Shown here: piece by piece, positions 6,911 through 39,608 of the stretch
Layout: each line of letters opens with the position of its first letter
How positions within the stretch are numbered: position 1 is the first letter of the stretch
Source of the DNA: a virus
Virus record (IMG/VR): IMGVR_UViG_3300046472_000072
Location: 1 to 53,402 of that record
Strand: one strand, 5' to 3'
Length of the DNA: 53,402 nt
Made by a program: the position numbers and the translations under genes
Notes under the pieces: model-generated
Told to the model about the DNA's origin: nothing
What the model saw: the letters and a program-made list of their open reading frames with translations, nothing else
The model's database searches: none

Positions 6911-7606
6911 ATGAAACAAGTAATTGCAAGGATTTCGCCAATCACCAATACTCCGGTAATCTTCGATGTTGATTCGCGCAAGACTGGAGATGGACGCCTG
7001 AAAGCCTACCTCGATGGGAAGGATGTCCTCGTAGGGTATGACTTTTACATGAACACCGAGCACCTTCCGCAAGATCAGGCACTGAAAATCGCACGAGCTT
7101 ACGCCCAACATGCGGGCATCCCCGAGCATGAAATTATGGTTCGCCAGAGGTTCCCGAAGACTACCACTGGCAAGCGCAAGACCCATGACGCTGCGCTGAA
7201 GCTGGTTGAGAAAACTGATGAGAAGGTTGCAGACAAGCCTGAGACGCTTCAGCAACTTGCACAGGAAGTCCACGACCAGCATACGAAAGAGAAGGCTCAG
7301 AAGGAGTCCAAGAAGGCTGAGCCGAAGAAGGAAGTTAAGGTAGAGAACAAAGCAACCTCCGCCAACCCCGAAGGTGCAAAGGTTGAGCAACCGAAGCGCA
7401 GGCAGTATAACCGTAAGAACACGAAACGTTCTGAGGCAGCAATGTCTCGCTATTTGAAAGAACTTGGAAAAAATTCAGCAGTGTCGGAGACGTTGCTTGA
7501 GGCGGCTGCACCTGGACCCGGTGTGACCCCTGCTCAAGTGGATGAGGCAAAACTGAAGCTCGGCATGGCGATTGCTGAAATTTTGATGAAGTTTAATGTT
7601 CTGTGA
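6911..7606 (+). CDS. Lysine/glutamate-rich hypothetical protein, 231 aa
   Basis: A 231-residue protein with a folded-looking N-terminus (MKQVIARISPITNTPVIFDV, about 1-90), a long charged, probably coiled or disordered middle (about 90-160, many KKAE/KKE repeats), a basic stretch (QPKRRQYNRKNTKR) and a helical C-terminus. The basic tract suggests nucleic-acid contact, but no family is recognised. AAGGAG precedes the ATG. A hairpin terminator follows, and the next gene converges on it. Confidence 0.75.
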   Translation: MKQVIARISPITNTPVIFDVDSRKTGDGRLKAYLDGKDVLVGYDFYMNTEHLPQDQALKIARAYAQHAGIPEHEIMVRQRFPKTTTGKRKTHDAALKLVEKTDEKVADKPETLQQLAQEVHDQHTKEKAQKESKKAEPKKEVKVENKATSANPEGAKVEQPKRRQYNRKNTKRSEAAMSRYLKELGKNSAVSETLLEAAAPGPGVTPAQVDEAKLKLGMAIAEILMKFNVL

Positions 7607-8684
7607 GATGGTGAGCCTCTCTGTTTGGAGAGGCTTCCTCTGCGCTGAGCAGGGTATATCCATTCACTTCCTTCATGGCACCTCTGGCGAACCGGTAAAC
7701 CTGTGTTTTGGTGCAGTTTAGTATGGCAGCAATGTCCTCGGCTGATCCCCTAACAACATCCCCAGTGGGGATGTTGTGTAAGGTGTAAAATCCGTTCTTT
7801 AGAGGCTTCTTGCGTTCCTTTTTCAGTCTAGGATCGTCCTCAAGAGTTGAATTAAGGCAGAAATCTCCGCATTTTACCATCTTACCTTTCAGCACGGCGA
7901 AAACACTACCCGCTGGTAGGCTGTATTCCTCGATCAATTGTCTACTCGTCTTGTGCAGGACTTCCCCTGTAGAAATTCTTCTAAACTCTCTGAGTATGGC
8001 GGGCCTATGATTCCAATCGTCTGTACTGGCCATGCAGTAACCTTGTGTAAACTTCACCTCTCCATCTACAATTCTGTTTACATAAGTAATAGGTATGTCT
8101 GCAAATACGCTAAATTCCTTCCTAGTCATCTGGTAAGTCTCGCCAGAGACGATATGCTTAAACATATGCAGAGTGCTGTCTAGTACATTAGGGACCGCCA
8201 TGTTTGATACTGCCATACAAACGCCTTTAGATGTTGTTATTTGCCCCAAAACCAGCCTCGCCACGTCGTTCCTAGTAAGGCCAAATTTTTTCTTGGCGTC
8301 ATCTCTGGTTCCGACCAAAACTTCGCCTGTTCGTAAATCTCTGAACTCATACTTCTTGAAGTCCTTCCTTTTCGCAAGAAACCTGCGAACCGCTTCTTCC
8401 TTAACCCTTGCATACATCTTTCTATTCTTAACTACTGTCCTTCCATCTCTTGGAATGAGCATTGCTTTGGCTGCGTACCACAGCTCGTCAGTGTCGTATG
8501 CCTTAGCTAACAACAAGTGCGCCATAAAGTGGTCTTCCACAGTAAGGTAAACCAAGTTCTCTGGCTCATCCCCTCCTCCCATGCATCTTGCAACGATATG
8601 GTGCCTCTCATAGTACACACCTTCCAGCTTCGGCATCATCTTCCTGTGCTCAATCAACTCATTGTAGATGCGCAGGTAATCCAT
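7593..8684 (-). CDS. HNH homing endonuclease with C-terminal NUMOD-type repeats
   Basis: A 363-residue protein. The HNH nuclease domain is near residues 25-60 (YYERHHIVARCMGGG, then ENLVYL and the helical HFMAHLLLAKAY). Four repeats of about 55-70 residues follow, each with a (S/T)GE or (S/T)GD turn and a small helix-turn-helix; these are NUMOD-type DNA-binding modules typical of phage homing endonucleases. It lies antisense to the surrounding early genes and is the second gene of a cassette whose first gene stops in a TGATG overlap with this start. A homologous cassette lies at 18.2-19.4 kb. Confidence 0.85.
   Translation of the reverse strand: MDYLRIYNELIEHRKMMPKLEGVYYERHHIVARCMGGGDEPENLVYLTVEDHFMAHLLLAKAYDTDELWYAAKAMLIPRDGRTVVKNRKMYARVKEEAVRRFLAKRKDFKKYEFRDLRTGEVLVGTRDDAKKKFGLTRNDVARLVLGQITTSKGVCMAVSNMAVPNVLDSTLHMFKHIVSGETYQMTRKEFSVFADIPITYVNRIVDGEVKFTQGYCMASTDDWNHRPAILREFRRISTGEVLHKTSRQLIEEYSLPAGSVFAVLKGKMVKCGDFCLNSTLEDDPRLKKERKKPLKNGFYTLHNIPTGDVVRGSAEDIAAILNCTKTQVYRFARGAMKEVNGYTLLSAEEASPNREAHHLTEH
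7614..7635 (+). terminator. Hairpin terminator, rightward
   Basis: AGCCTCTC-TGTTTG-GAGAGGCT is an eight-pair stem with a weak T-rich tail, just after the stop at 7606. It lies inside the 3' end of the convergent HNH gene. Confidence 0.5.
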
Positions 8685-8908
8685 CAGACAGACCCTTCCT
8701 GGTCTGTTCCGTACAGTGCGTCATATGCTTCGGTAAGCTGAATGATCTTGGCCAAGCGGTTTGCCTGTTCAAGCTTCGCAAGCATTGCAGCGTCTTCCTT
8801 ATTGGTGTAGTATGTGATTAGCTTCCGGTAGGCTTGGGCCTGGACAGTGTTGAGGTGTTGTGCAGTTTCTACAAGCGTGGCTTTACGATAGTCGAACGAA
8901 CGCGACAT
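8684..8908 (-). CDS. MSRxFDY small protein, partner of the HNH gene (copy 1)
   Basis: A 74-residue, mostly helical protein starting MSRSFDYRKATLVETAQHLN. It is clearly homologous to the protein at 19133-19339, roughly half the positions matching by eye, with shared landmarks FDY, LNTVQ, YYT and MLAKL. In both places it is followed without a gap by an HNH-NUMOD endonuclease, so the two genes move as a unit. The ATG follows GGAGATATCAC. Function unknown; it could be a repressor, antitoxin-like or RNA-binding partner that limits the nuclease. Confidence 0.8.
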   Translation of the reverse strand: MSRSFDYRKATLVETAQHLNTVQAQAYRKLITYYTNKEDAAMLAKLEQANRLAKIIQLTEAYDALYGTDQEGSV

Positions 8909-8961
8909 GTGATATCTCCATGTATAAGAGTGTTTAGAGGGAATTTGAAACAGGCTTACTA

Positions 8962-8980
8962 GAGTAGCGTTGCACTACTC
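8962..8980 (-). ncRNA. 5'-terminal leader hairpin with GCAAC loop (copy 1)
   Basis: The minus strand reads GAGTAGT-GCAAC-GCTACTC: a seven-pair stem including a U-G pair next to the loop. It begins about three bases after the predicted start of transcription. The second cassette has a hairpin of the same size and position with different stem bases and loop GCAAT (19382-19400), so the structure is conserved by compensating changes. Likely a regulatory RNA element. Confidence 0.6.
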
Positions 8981-8989
8981 CATGACGAT

Positions 8990-9018
8990 ATATTACCATT
9001 TGACAAGCCATTTGTCAA
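8990..9018 (-). promoter_or_regulatory. Sigma70-like promoter of HNH cassette 1
   Basis: On the minus strand TTGACA, 17 bases, TAATAT, about 80 bases before the first gene of the cassette. Confidence 0.7.
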
Positions 9019-9059
9019 GATTTGCAGCAATCTTATGGCTCTGTCCCTGATTATTTCTC

Positions 9060-18221: not shown

Positions 18222-19136
18222 TCAGTTTTTCCTTATTTCTTTCTTAGTTCCGGTGATCGTCTCGCCTTCAGCATTAATTAGGCGGATTGGCTTGAACTTC
18301 TCTGCCAAAACTCTCTCGTAATTTTCTGGTAGACAATACCCGAACGATGTCAGTGACTTTCCATTAGTTATATGTGAAACTGAGCTATTGTGCATTCCTG
18401 TCAACCTCATCAACTCTGGACGAGTGCCAGTTATGACTGCACCTGATTCTATGTGAACTAGCGTAAACTCATCCACGGCTTTTGTTTTCTTGGTAGGGTC
18501 AGTTCCTTCTAAATAGTATTTGCCAGCGACAAGTTTTATTCTACGTGTCAATGAGTAAATACTAGCCTCTGAGATTCCTAATTTCTCGCTCAACTCTTTA
18601 GCAGTGCCTGTATGGGTCAGGCCATCTTCAAGACTAACTATGTTGTACTTCTTGTGTTTACCGGCATTTTCTGCGTTTCCCGCCAAGCAAATACCCCTAG
18701 CAGACGCTGAGATACCTCTGACTAATTTACTCGTCTGGGAAAAATCCAACCCGTATTCCTTTTGTAGATATTCCCTTGTGGCCGTAAACACCTTACCCGT
18801 CCTCAAGTCTTCAAACTCATACTCTGTTTGGTCGGACACATAAATTGCTAGATTTCTTCTTGCGACAGCAAACATATGTCTATTCCTTATAACTCGCCCG
18901 TTTTGCGGCATCTGCATTGCAATAATGGCTCTCCACATAGGCCCGCCGTACGTCTTTGCCAGGAGGAGATGTGCGAAGTAGTGTTCTTCGTATGTTAAGT
19001 ATATAAGGTTCTCGTCGTCATCGCGTCCACCAAGACTCACAGGGTGTATGTGGTGACGTTCGTAATACTCGGAGTTCAGTTTAGGGCGGAATTTGCGACT
19101 TTCTATGAAGTCGTCATAAATCTTGTTGTAGTTCAT
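18222..19136 (-). CDS. HNH homing endonuclease with NUMOD-type repeats (cassette 2)
   Basis: A 304-residue relative of the protein at 7593-8684. The HNH domain is near residues 23-60 (YYERHHIHPVSLGGRDDDEN), followed by three full NUMOD-type repeats. A fourth begins (RLINAEGETITGTKKEIRKN) but is cut by a stop. In the -1 frame the missing part continues at once as LNVSSGFFKQPIVGKGSNNE and ends at 18157, so the fourth repeat is split by one base at an AAAAA run. Its ATG overlaps the stop of the MSRxFDY gene (ATGA). Confidence 0.85.
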   Translation of the reverse strand: MNYNKIYDDFIESRKFRPKLNSEYYERHHIHPVSLGGRDDDENLIYLTYEEHYFAHLLLAKTYGGPMWRAIIAMQMPQNGRVIRNRHMFAVARRNLAIYVSDQTEYEFEDLRTGKVFTATREYLQKEYGLDFSQTSKLVRGISASARGICLAGNAENAGKHKKYNIVSLEDGLTHTGTAKELSEKLGISEASIYSLTRRIKLVAGKYYLEGTDPTKKTKAVDEFTLVHIESGAVITGTRPELMRLTGMHNSSVSHITNGKSLTSFGYCLPENYERVLAEKFKPIRLINAEGETITGTKKEIRKN

Positions 19137-19339
19137 GCGCCGTACTCCTGCGCATACTCAGCCTGAAGCTTCAGAATTTTTGACAGCTTGCGGGCCTGGG
19201 CTAGTTTAGCCAGCATTGTCGCGTCCCCTTTTTTCGTGTAGTAGGCGACAAGGCGTCGATAAGATTGGTCTTGCACAGTGTTTAGGCGAACGGCGATAGC
19301 ATCGACGGACGCCGACTGGTAGTCGAAATTTCGGCTCAT
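19133..19339 (-). CDS. MSRxFDY small protein, partner of the HNH gene (copy 2)
   Basis: A 68-residue helical homologue of the protein at 8684-8908, starting MSRNFDYQSASVDAIAVRLN and sharing LNTVQ, YYT and MLAKL landmarks. The ATG at 19339 matches the other copy's start and follows AAGGAACTCCC; an upstream in-frame ATG at 19390 lies inside the leader hairpin and is unlikely. Always paired with the nuclease gene; function unknown. Confidence 0.8.
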   Translation of the reverse strand: MSRNFDYQSASVDAIAVRLNTVQDQSYRRLVAYYTKKGDATMLAKLAQARKLSKILKLQAEYAQEYGA

Positions 19340-19381
19340 GGGAGTTCCTTTAGTTGGGATTTTGTACTTCAGACTTTCAAA

Positions 19382-19400
19382 GTGAGGCATTGCACCTCAC
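19382..19400 (-). ncRNA. 5'-terminal leader hairpin with GCAAT loop (copy 2)
   Basis: The minus strand reads GTGAGGT-GCAAT-GCCTCAC, with the same stem length, U-G closing pair and distance from the promoter as the hairpin at 8962-8980, but other stem bases. Compensating differences argue for a selected RNA structure. Confidence 0.6.
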
Positions 19401-19410
19401 AATTAACAAT

Positions 19411-19439
19411 ATTATAGCGCGTGACATGCATATTGTCAA
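19411..19439 (-). promoter_or_regulatory. Consensus sigma70 promoter of HNH cassette 2
   Basis: On the minus strand TTGACA, 17 bases, TATAAT: a perfect consensus, so the cassette should be strongly transcribed unless repressed. Confidence 0.8.
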
Positions 19440-22303: not shown

Positions 22304-22310
22304 CAACAGA

Positions 22311-36399: not shown

Positions 36400-36715
36400 G
36401 TTCTGGTTGTAGCACTACTGTCGAGGTCATGAAAGCCGACGAGGGCTGACACAAATTCTCGTAACAAATTTGCCCAACAGGACAAGCTCCATCTGGGCAT
36501 ACTCCGCTTCGGCGGATTCGAGGAGAGGGCGTCTGTATGGGCGCTGAAGAGGGTCGGGAAGGAAGGTGCTGCGACTCCACCAATTATTTATAGGCTGCAC
36601 GGCAGGGATGCTGTGTGGCTTTTTGTTGTTTCAAGTTTTGTGGCGAACGGATTAGCTATCCTCTCCAGTGCTACACCACTGGATAGTCACTCTTATTAAC
36701 TCGTGTAGGAGCATT
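36400..36715. other. Intergenic stretch before the GIY-YIG gene
   Basis: About 315 bases with no gene seen. It has a TCCGC-TTCG-GCGGA hairpin (36503-36516) and a CCAGTG-N6-CACTGG hairpin near the end. No clear promoter. Confidence 0.35.
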
Positions 36716-37864
36716 ATGAGCGGAAGATTTAAGAAAGGTCAAGGGTTTATTGACTTGACCGGAGAGCGTTACGGCATGTTGACGGTACTTGAGTTTGTTG
36801 GGCAAGACAAGCACAAACGGAGTAAATGGAGATGCCAATGCGACTGTGGCGCTATCACAGAAGAATTCGGAGCTGAGATGAAACACGGAAGTGTTAAGTC
36901 TTGTGGATGTGCAATGACGTGGAAGCGACCGCGAAGGGTTGATCTTGTAGAATTTCTAAGTCGCGCCAAAGAAAAACATGGTGAAAGGTACGACTATTCC
37001 TCTGTGGAGTATAAGAATACTAGCACACATGTGAATATTAGGTGCCACGATCACGGAATTTTTGCACAGACTCCTACTCAACACTATCGCGGTGGGCAAG
37101 GGTGCCCGAAATGTGCTTACGAAGAAAAAGCAAGAGCCAAGCGCAGTAACACCGAAACTTTTGTTCAAGAGGCCAAGAAAAGAAATGGTGGTAATTTTGA
37201 TTACTCTCTTGTTCATTACAGTGATAGTCAAACTCCAGTTGAGGTCATCTGCAAGACCTGTAATACCAACTTTAAACAACGCCCCAGCGTCCATTTACTT
37301 GGTAGTGGTTGCCCAGCATGCGCGAATGCGGACAAAAAGGAACGGTATACGCTCAGCACTGAAGAGTATGTAGAAAAAGCTAAAACTATTTTTCAAGATA
37401 GTGAGTATTGTTATAAGGGCACCGTTTATACGTATTCTAAGGATAAGATTGAGGTCTTTTGCAACTGCTGCAAGTCTACCTTCAAGATTAGGGCAGATGT
37501 CCACTTACGCGGCCACGGGTGCCCTTGTAAAACAACTCATGGATTTGATTTTACCCGTCCTGGGACGCTCTACATCTTAGAGTGTGGACCTATTACTAAG
37601 ATTGGAATTACATCACATGAAGTGAGCCGAAGAATCAAGGACATCTCAAGGTCTTACGGCGTAAATTTTAACCTTGTGACGGAGTTTGAGGTAGAAGACC
37701 CTAGACTCTGCTCAGATGTGGAAACAGAGATGTTACGGTATCTTAGGAGTTGTTATAAACAGCCGAACGACAAATTCGATGGTTATACGGAGTGCTTCTA
37801 CGATGTTGACCAACGTGACCTTATCAACAGGTTGAAAATTAAGCTGGAGGTATATGACCAGTAA
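36716..37864 (+). CDS. DUF723/GIY-YIG homing endonuclease 1, adjacent to the terL intron
   Basis: A 382-residue protein. Residues 1-65 form a zinc module (GERYGMLTVLEFVGQ, CQCDCGAI, SCGC). Three DUF723-type repeats follow, each with a YDYS-type stretch, a V.I.C..HG or V.CK.C segment and a terminal GCPxC. The C-terminus (TLYILECGPITKIGITS ... LRSCYKQPNDKFDGYTECFY) is a GIY-YIG-like MUG113/T5orf172 nuclease. Its last 11 bases overlap exon 1 of terL and carry the terL ribosome site. It probably cuts intron-less terL and so spreads the neighbouring intron; inferred from position. Confidence 0.85.
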   Translation: MSGRFKKGQGFIDLTGERYGMLTVLEFVGQDKHKRSKWRCQCDCGAITEEFGAEMKHGSVKSCGCAMTWKRPRRVDLVEFLSRAKEKHGERYDYSSVEYKNTSTHVNIRCHDHGIFAQTPTQHYRGGQGCPKCAYEEKARAKRSNTETFVQEAKKRNGGNFDYSLVHYSDSQTPVEVICKTCNTNFKQRPSVHLLGSGCPACANADKKERYTLSTEEYVEKAKTIFQDSEYCYKGTVYTYSKDKIEVFCNCCKSTFKIRADVHLRGHGCPCKTTHGFDFTRPGTLYILECGPITKIGITSHEVSRRIKDISRSYGVNFNLVTEFEVEDPRLCSDVETEMLRYLRSCYKQPNDKFDGYTECFYDVDQRDLINRLKIKLEVYDQ

Positions 37865-39608
37865 GAAAAAAGTTTATGGCCCTGCAAGTGAGAAGCAGCG
37901 CCTTATTCTAACAGATCGAACTACAGACGTAATTTTGATCGGCGGTGGTAGGTAATCCAGTGCCTCCGCTTTACCAACAAACCCTTAATTCGGTGGAACT
38001 CTCAATGAGACAATACCGAGCGAAGCCTAGAAATAGGAACGTGTAACGACTAGCCGTAAGGCGTAGGCCCGAGTGGGCCGAAACAGGGTTCAGCCGCTCA
38101 GCGGTGGAAGATATAGTCTGCTCCTTACAGTGATGTAAGGCTGCTTAATAAGCGGGATAAGATTAACGACCTTATCCGAACACTACCTCATGGCTGGTGG
38201 GGGTAAATCAGCAACATGTTTGATCAAAAACCTTGACGGGGTTAATGACCCGCACTTCAGATGCACAATTTTCCGTCGCACATACCCTGAGCTTAAGCGT
38301 CAAGGTGGACTAATTGACGAAAGCAAATCTATCTATTCGTCTTGGTCTGGGGAATACAAATCTCAAGCCATGGTATGGAATTTTAAGTCTGGAGCATCTA
38401 TTGCTTTCTCAGCGATCGCCTCCGATGATGACTTAGGCTCCTGGCAAGGTTCCCAACTTACCCGCGTGCTGATCGACGAAGCTGGTGACAAGTGGACAGA
38501 GAAGCAGGTTTTGTTTCTTCTGTCACGTATCCGCTCTGCGCATAGCAAGATTTACCCGCAGATGATACTTTCATGCAACCCGGATATTAATTCGTTCTTG
38601 AAAAAATGGGTCGATTTCAGTCTTGGACCTGACGGTGTTCCTCTGCCGGGAACAGAGCACAGAATTCGTTGGTTTGTCACTGTAGAAAACCAAGTGTTGT
38701 GGGCGGACTCTGCTGAAGAGTGCTACGAACTCCACGGCAAGCCGCGCAATATGGTTTATGCACGAGGAATGTCCGAGGAAGAGATTAAGAAGCATTCGCC
38801 TGATAAACTCTTTATGCCGAAGAGCTTCCGCTTTATCCCAACCGGAGTATTCGACAATCCGTACCTGTTGCCGCCGAGAAACAACACGTATTTGGCGAAC
38901 CTGTTGTCTCAGCCATATGTGAATCAGTTAAGATTTTTGCATGGTTCCTGGACAGCTCGCGAAGCTGGAGAATCCTTCTTCCGCAGGGATTGGGTAGAGA
39001 TTGTTGATAAGCCACCTGTCAAGGTAACGGGACGTGTAAGAGCGTATGACTTTGCTGCATCCGAGGAGCCTAGCCACGGAGGTTCCTCAAGGGACCCCGA
39101 TTACACGGTTGGTTGCCTCATGAGCCGTGACAGCTCTGGGACTTTATTCATTGAGCATATCAGGCGGTATAGAAAACTCACGGATGGCGTCTTAAAGGAC
39201 GTTATCGAGACAGGGTACAATGATGGTGTAGAAGTGCCTGTACTGATTCCGAAAGATCCAGGTGCAGGTGGTGCAGCAGCTCACCTCTTCTTTGTTCAGC
39301 ACCTATCCGAAGCAGGACTTTCCGTAAAGACCGTGAAGGTAAGTGGACACTCTGGCAAACTCCAACGGGCACAGCCATTTTTTGCAATGGCAGAGGCAGG
39401 CAAGGTCAAGATCGTCAGGGATTCTGAAGGTGACAGGTTCGTAGAGAATATGCTGATGGAATTGGAGTATTTCACAGGTGGTCGGAATGAGAAGAATGAT
39501 CAGGTCGATGCTATCGCCGATGCTGCCAATTTCCTTATGAGGCAACAGGTGATGCCGAATTTCACACTAGCCATAAACACCCAACCCTCACCAATCCCCT
39601 CCCTATAA
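37854..39608 (+). CDS. terL: Terminase large subunit, interrupted by a group I intron
   Basis: Two exons, 37854-37949 and 38193-39608, join in frame to a 503-residue TerL. Exon 1 (MTSKKKVYGPASEKQRLILT ... DVILIGGG) has GGAGGTAT before its ATG. Splicing creates Walker A GGGAGGGKS across the junction. Walker B is RVLIDEAGD, and the C-terminal nuclease domain has YDFAASEE and KNDQVDAIADAANFL. TerL is the ATP-driven motor and nuclease that packages DNA into proheads. The ATG at 38190 is the accidental last three bases of the intron, not a start. Confidence 0.9.
37950..38192 (+). ncRNA. Group I intron (243 nt, no internal ORF)
   Basis: Exon 1 ends in T at 37949, and its last bases GCGGTGGT pair with the internal guide GCCTCCGC at 37962-37969, leaving the conserved U-G pair at the 5' splice site. 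The P7 strands GACTA (38048-38052) and TAGTC (38114-38118, within the hallmark AGATATAGTC) are present. The intron ends in G at 38192, and CCAG at 37957-37960 can pair with CTGG of exon 2 (P10). Removing it restores the terL P-loop. It should self-splice; its short length explains the lack of an internal endonuclease. Confidence 0.9.

Follow-up and report, generated by a model that had tools for sequence, protein, structure and literature searches.

The window analysed here, a viral stretch of 53,402 nt, raises the question of why two nuclease genes on its minus strand are each preceded by the same small gene and the same kind of short hairpin. An earlier note, made from the window sequence alone, had proposed that the hairpin is a selected RNA signal, perhaps one that the small protein targets in order to repress its own operon. 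The observation is confirmed: the two cassettes repeat each part in the same order, with stem pairs and loop kept: a consensus sigma70 promoter, a GCAAY-loop hairpin, a gene for an MSRxFDY protein of 68-74 aa and an overlapping HNH nuclease ORF. In cassette 1 the promoter TTGACA-N17-TAATAT (8990..9018, minus strand, as all parts listed here) is followed by the 5'-terminal RNA hairpin GAGTAGT-GCAAC-GCTACTC (8962..8980), the conserved boxes GTAAGCCTGT (consensus GTAAGTCTGT; 8950..8959) and AATTCCCTC (consensus AATCCCAC; 8937..8945), the small protein P0001 (MSRSFDY..., 74 aa; 8684..8908) and the homing endonuclease P0002 (363 aa; 7593..8684), whose ATG overlaps the TGA of the small ORF. Cassette 2 comprises the promoter TTGACA-N17-TATAAT (19411..19439), the hairpin GTGAGGT-GCAAT-GCCTCAC (19382..19400), the boxes GAAAGTCTGA (19369..19378) and AATCCCAA (19354..19361), the small protein P0003 (MSRNFDY..., 68 aa; 19133..19339 with the stop) and the homing endonuclease P0004 (304 aa; 18222..19136). 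The start of the second small ORF was set at the ATG at 19339, as the start given by the ORF lister (19390) falls within the hairpin. Promoters were assigned from the sequence and a promoter scan, hairpins from covariation, folding and matches to the covariance model R1 described below, boxes from the leader alignment, and the small genes, 54 % identical in their proteins, from the ORFs, the alignment and a protein profile.

The assignment of P0002 and P0004 as homing endonucleases, made from sequence, is firm (phrog_655, E 4.3e-35 and 2.9e-37, respectively); the HNH-NUMOD label given to them earlier holds in that respect, and for NUMOD there were sub-threshold Pfam matches only. A perfect 7-bp hairpin, ACAGACC-AGGAAG-GGTCTGT, lies just 5' of the HNH start codon of cassette 1 (8688-8707), with the likely Shine-Dalgarno sequence of that ORF in its loop. 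Sequence identity of the terminase large subunit (TerL) is 38 % with Pseudomonas phage NoPa and 37 % with PAK_P1, which makes the window phage a distant relative of the PAK_P1-like group; many records with relatives are 84-93 kb long. Within 36668-39608 a group I intron (RF00028, 37921-38140) was found just 5' of the main TerL reading frame, and the same stretch contains a phrog_681 endonuclease (36668-37864). The terminase gene seems to be split by an intron. On the plus strand three alike promoter-like repeats of 40 bases, TTGACAAGAATC..TATAAT, at 22310, 35546 and 50198, probably serve as early promoters of the phage itself.

When IMG/VR was searched with four small proteins, 12 loci were obtained, 10 of them new (L008 and L009 are repeats of L001 and L002, L007 and L015 duplicates of L006 and L014), and a second scan with 12 sequences returned the same 12 loci with none added. 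The alignment set thus consisted of 12 copies, the window pair plus ten IMG/VR copies. In these ten further distinct copies, and in L048, which was found later, both the leader and the small protein are kept. The earlier note had suggested a homologue search and a covariance model of the leaders. Such a model, R1, run on 13 whole viral records (that of the window and 12 others, two near-duplicate pairs included), gave 16 matches below E 1e-6, every one of them in front of an MSRxFDY gene, and six others with E 0.19-0.98. In the same records the small-protein profile marked 29 places, namely the 16 of R1 and 13 without an R1 match. L048 (duplicate L049), a second copy in G010 that is in no alignment, was found separately by R1 and by the protein profile, so that 13 of 13 distinct copies within the MSRxFDY clade have the hairpin. 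A pattern scan for the hairpin gave 15 stretches, nine of them outside cassette loci; the whole model matched none of these nine, the best reaching 18.7 bits by its stem-loop only. The same stem-loop as in the cassettes occurs in an otherwise unrelated contig (L081, 6764-6780), about 20 bases past a promoter-like TTGCAA-N16-TATACT and 5' of a short ORF, and is probably there by chance. In the scan with the boxes only, none of the 80 matches listed contained the full element, and the best among them (L131, 28.6 bits) lies antisense within a coding region, without a hairpin. Among 50,697 phage records (INPHARED) no convincing relative of P0001 or P0003 turned up, and tblastn searches of named phages, PLSDB plasmids and GTDB genomes gave chance-level matches to the small protein or none.

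Folding, base changes and strand preference all bear on the hairpin. Against dinucleotide shuffles the two window hairpins had z-scores of -4.5 and -3.4, with 0/200 and 1/200 shuffles folding as well. Among 22 promoter-like sites in the window (at least 10 of 12 consensus positions), the 5' hairpins of the cassettes (-12.0 and -10.5 kcal/mol) rank first and second in strength, and the other two promoters with 12/12 positions (22311 and 50199) have next to none (-2.2 and 0.0 kcal/mol); a generic 5' hairpin of phage promoters was therefore rejected. All 77 stem cells of the 19-base hairpin are paired (12 copies, 11 distinct). The 11 distinct hairpins show changes on both sides of the stem at five of the seven pairs, with double changes in several branches, so the covariation that the earlier note had predicted for a larger set is present. 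The covariation score was 0.683; shuffles gave 0.266 (0/500 reached the observed score) and sliding never more than 0.135; kinship among the copies inflates such counts, and these figures are not probabilities. Pair 2-18 occurs as all four Watson-Crick types (GC, CG, AU and UA) with zero mismatches. When G8-Y12 is included as an eighth pair, 88/88 cells pair on the transcribed strand and 71.6 % on the complementary one; the 25 cells that fail there are, on the transcribed strand, G.U wobbles without exception, as RNA would be expected to show. This asymmetry, together with the four types at pair 2-18, points to selection on the transcribed RNA, and the sequences support RNA rather than a DNA palindrome as the selected object. 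The loop GCAAY is invariant in 12/12 copies, and since Y is always C or U, G8 and Y12 may pair and leave a CAA triloop; the loop is compatible with such a G-Y pair or with a GCAA fold from which Y is flipped out. An upstream reading frame starting from an AUG in the loop was discarded, as it exists only where the loop ends in U and the next base is G, and is not conserved. Rfam gave zero matches up to E 1 at 8900-9030, and its gathering-threshold scan of the whole window found a group I intron and tRNA only.

The place of the hairpin is as constant as its pairing. In 12/12 copies 16-17 bases separate the -10 box from the loop (the L001 promoter, TTGACA-N17-TACTAT, was read by eye, as the script chose a shifted -35 box). 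The likely transcription start, the seventh base past the -10 box, is a purine in 11/12 copies as judged by eye, and lies about 3-4 bases 5' of the stem in all of them. The earlier proposal of a selected RNA signal is thus borne out by covariation over 12 copies, strand asymmetry, an invariant loop and a fixed place past the promoter. On the 3' side of the stem the boxes GUAAGUCUGU and AAUCCCAC are conserved although the rest of the leader aligns poorly. The distance between hairpin end and start codon is 53 bases in cassette 1 and 42 in cassette 2, and a ribosome site of the AGGAG type lies 3' of the hairpin and of both boxes, not inside the stem. In neither window cassette does the hairpin overlap or occlude this site, so it is not evident how it would block initiation directly; contacts at the boxes, which are nearer the start codon, are possible. 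A pairing between the UCCC box and the Shine-Dalgarno sequence was rejected by eye (at most 3 pairs, missing in L012).

The small protein is better conserved than the enzyme that it precedes: across the same four cassettes mean column identity is 78 % for the small protein versus 51 % for the nuclease. The combination N20, V22, Q23 and Q25 occurs in 13/13 proteins of the hairpin clade and in 0/16 others; the correlation of N20, Q23 and Q25 with the hairpin may, as far as the sequences go, reflect a single event in one clade. Two AlphaFold models, with pLDDT 87.5 (12 rows) and 94.7 (29 rows), show three helices, with the four residues located where predicted helices begin or in the stretches between them. 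Fold searches with both models found nothing significant in the PDB, and the best viral match had E 0.46, a result compatible with membership in a family; across Pfam, NCBIfam and the fold searches no family covers the protein. A PDB profile match to designed armadillo repeats (E 0.001) was judged to be chance, and ICP1 ORF2, a weak fold match, gave no lead on examination. Neither an arginine-rich motif nor a recognised RNA-binding fold was found in the alignments and the fold and family searches.

A wider family was drawn from the 13 hairpin-less places and a scan with three of these (16 loci, 10 distinct; L065, a fragment, was left out of the judgement). Its proteins have 60-75 aa, distant relatives are 25-33 % identical, and many of the latter overlap or abut a nuclease gene, so that the operon arrangement is kept. 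The earlier note had named homologues lacking the hairpin as evidence against its proposal. These exist in the wider family, where no locus outside the MSRxFDY clade has the GCAAY hairpin, and are absent from the clade itself. R1 matched none of the 13 of 16 wider-family loci that were given to it (the run omitted L086 (100 % match), L087 and L094 (duplicates by protein and leader)). Four relatives (L058, L060, L062 and L063) are not beside a nuclease gene and resemble core phage genes; such stand-alone members perhaps represent a phage regulator ancestral to the cassette protein. These four follow near-consensus promoters, and three precede genes of 194-265 aa. In the leaders of subfamily 2, inverted repeats around the start, overlapping the -10 box, were seen by eye. 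Of the relatives, L054 (MSRSYNY; also L069) is the nearest, and its 5' hairpin carries a UUUU loop. In a tree of 29 small proteins L054 groups with the 13 hairpin copies (94/93), and the 13 alone have support of 86/83.

The earlier pairing of the MSRxFDY protein with an HNH nuclease fits both window cassettes and is too narrow as a general scope. Small proteins of clade B (support 100/98) precede three nuclease types: HNH in cassette 2, CapR zinc-finger enzymes in L012, L013, L016 and L048, and another HNH in L014. The CapR nucleases match Pfam CapR above cut-off and phrog_681, and their GIY-YIG part was recognised by eye (Pfam sub-threshold in L066 and silent in the others). The homing families found downstream are phrog_655 for P0002 and P0004, and phrog_681/CapR, phrog_314 and HNH_3-AP2 in relatives; judging by these sequences the control module is not tied to one nuclease family. 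Cassette 1 and its counterparts in L001, L002, L005, L006, L010 and L011 all lie antisense at the 3' end of one gene (locus A; 6911..7606, plus strand), where cassettes are present or absent in relatives. Locus A is occupied in the window and in 8 of 18 IMG/VR loci (L101, L106, L107, L108, L109, L115, L116 and L117). The other ten lack the small protein and the HNH-NUMOD nuclease and are called free by these two genes only, so that other nucleases may be present; L106/L107 and L113/L114 are near-duplicate pairs. A gene that comes after the cassette in L101, an occupied phage, has N-terminal matches no further than about 1.6 kb from the site in nine of the ten free phages. The nuclease at locus A in L115/L054 combines a catalytic part that by eye resembles GIY-YIG (phrog_314, E 1e-7) with a C-terminal part that matches those of the HNH enzymes. 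Presence and absence at one site is the behaviour of mobile nucleases, and by this comparison the cassettes are free-standing homing endonuclease genes with putative homing. The nuclease ORFs of L006, L010 and L054 extend into the antisense of the neighbour's last codons, and their SPSES-type tails are alike.

The reading that we prefer, tentatively and with somewhat less than even confidence, is that each homing endonuclease gene travels with its own control module, in which the small protein acts on the leader of its own message. From a host-type promoter a transcript would fold at once into the 5'-terminal hairpin, followed by the two boxes, the small protein gene and the nuclease, which in the window cassettes would be coupled by the stop/start overlap. 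The three-helix protein is inferred to bind the hairpin and would recognise, on its own nascent message, the boxes and the loop, whether the latter is a GNRA-like GCAAY or, on a U.G/G.Y end, a CAA triloop. Once bound, it would lower translation or stability of the operon, so that the nuclease would be produced in an early burst and then shut off, sparing the phage the costs of a strong antisense promoter and a DNA-cutting enzyme. In this family of large uncultured phages the module would thus probably keep the cutting enzyme in check. The parts, their order and conservation, the covariation at the RNA level, the nuclease reuse and the presence/absence pattern are read from the sequences, and recognition and lowered expression are what we infer from them. 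This reading is weakened by a hairpin that leaves the ribosome site free, by the missing arginine-rich motif and RNA-binding fold, by the relatives that keep the operon arrangement without the GCAAY hairpin, and by what the protein itself resembles.

The resemblance in question is to DNA-binding regulators: weak matches to phrog_357 and phrog_4779 (E about 0.01) and predicted helices 1-2 whose lengths and register, by eye, could be those of a helix-turn-helix. If the protein regulated promoter DNA, the hairpin would be read by a host factor or serve a separate second control, and the subfamily 2 and stand-alone relatives, with strong promoters close to the start codon and no GCAAY hairpin, would fit. 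We consider this unlikely, if a serious contender, as no significant PDB or family match backs the helix-turn-helix and an operator common to the subfamilies was not found. If, instead, the inverted repeat itself were the DNA operator, bound by a dimer, its location just past the transcription start would be where a repressor would work, but pair 2-18, always complementary without base preference, and the wobble cells that pair on the transcribed strand only make this very improbable; it was rejected mainly on the complementary-strand pairing.

Two further explanations accept the RNA. Stabilising 5' stem-loops, such as that of ompA, are established, and the hairpin might be a generic stabiliser of this type that blocks pyrophosphate removal and RNase E entry, with the small protein acting otherwise. 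The few bases before the stem, if transcription starts at the seventh base past the -10 box, and a stem sequence that varies freely with pairing kept are as expected; a plain stabiliser accounts for position and pairing, but not for the invariant GCAA or the two boxes, and the other strongest window promoters do without one, so we regard it as fairly unlikely. Alternatively, the module could work by transcription attenuation or antitermination, with hairpin and protein carrying polymerase past a downstream stop in the manner of boxB and N. A GNRA-like loop at the 5' end would fit, as does the sister cassette, in which L069 has a promoter, the UUUU-loop hairpin, an intrinsic terminator and the small ORF in this order (2884-2971). 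This is improbable, however, given that the sister loop differs, that no terminator was noticed in the other leaders and that the N-terminus of the small protein is not arginine-rich.

A bolder form of the preferred autogenous reading, to which we give still less credence, is that a portable RNA operator and a dedicated RNA-binding repressor are common to unrelated homing endonuclease families, the repressor coming from a regulator family with lone core-genome members and forming a new class of sequence-specific RNA-binding protein. If true, a dedicated, interchangeable module would show how different selfish nucleases come to be tolerated; a 19-base hairpin and a protein of about 70 residues are a compact RNA-protein pair, directly testable. 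What is known of the control of homing endonucleases comes mainly from T4-like phages, with the nuclease itself or a masking hairpin as the agent. For known homing endonucleases of such phages PMC2988022 lists control by the nuclease, masking hairpins, transcript processing and promoter choice. In the literature searched, mostly outside subscription journals, a homing endonuclease with a partner regulator and a leader RNA was not found, so the control module appears to be undescribed so far, controlled free-standing homing endonucleases themselves being already known.

The hairpins of I-TevI, segB and mobE in T4 and Aeh1 are likewise RNA structures upstream of phage homing endonucleases, but sequester the ribosome site, which the hairpin of the module leaves free. 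A hairpin without such sequestering precedes seg43(25) of Aeromonas phage 25, for which the relevant passage mentions no partner protein (PMC2988022). In its transcriptional autorepression I-TevI limits its own expression, as proposed for the module, but there, according to the same passages, the nuclease itself binds the operator (PMC2988022), whereas the module has a separate gene. The CapR zinc-finger type of the T5orf172/CapR homing endonucleases of ICP1 is also found downstream in several cassettes; known phages with CapR nucleases have no MSRxFDY partner, as judged from the INPHARED search and, for CapR-like nuclease neighbours in four named phages, from annotation. The boxB/N pair of lambdoid phages, as outlined in PMC12550061, likewise joins a small protein to a short hairpin, there with a GNRA-like five-base loop, a fold that GCAAY may also take; the module differs in the missing arginine-rich motif, in leaders mostly without a noticed terminator and in a loop that ends in Y. 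A conserved structured RNA in the leader of a presumably regulated operon is what phage autogenous operators have in common with the module, and on our analysis the autogenous translational operator of T4 gp43, which according to PMC3014915 includes a fixed-loop hairpin about 40 bases upstream, is the nearest working model. In T4, however, gp43 is the DNA polymerase and the operator reaches the ribosome site, whereas in the module a dedicated small protein stands before the nuclease, with the hairpin at the extreme 5' end.
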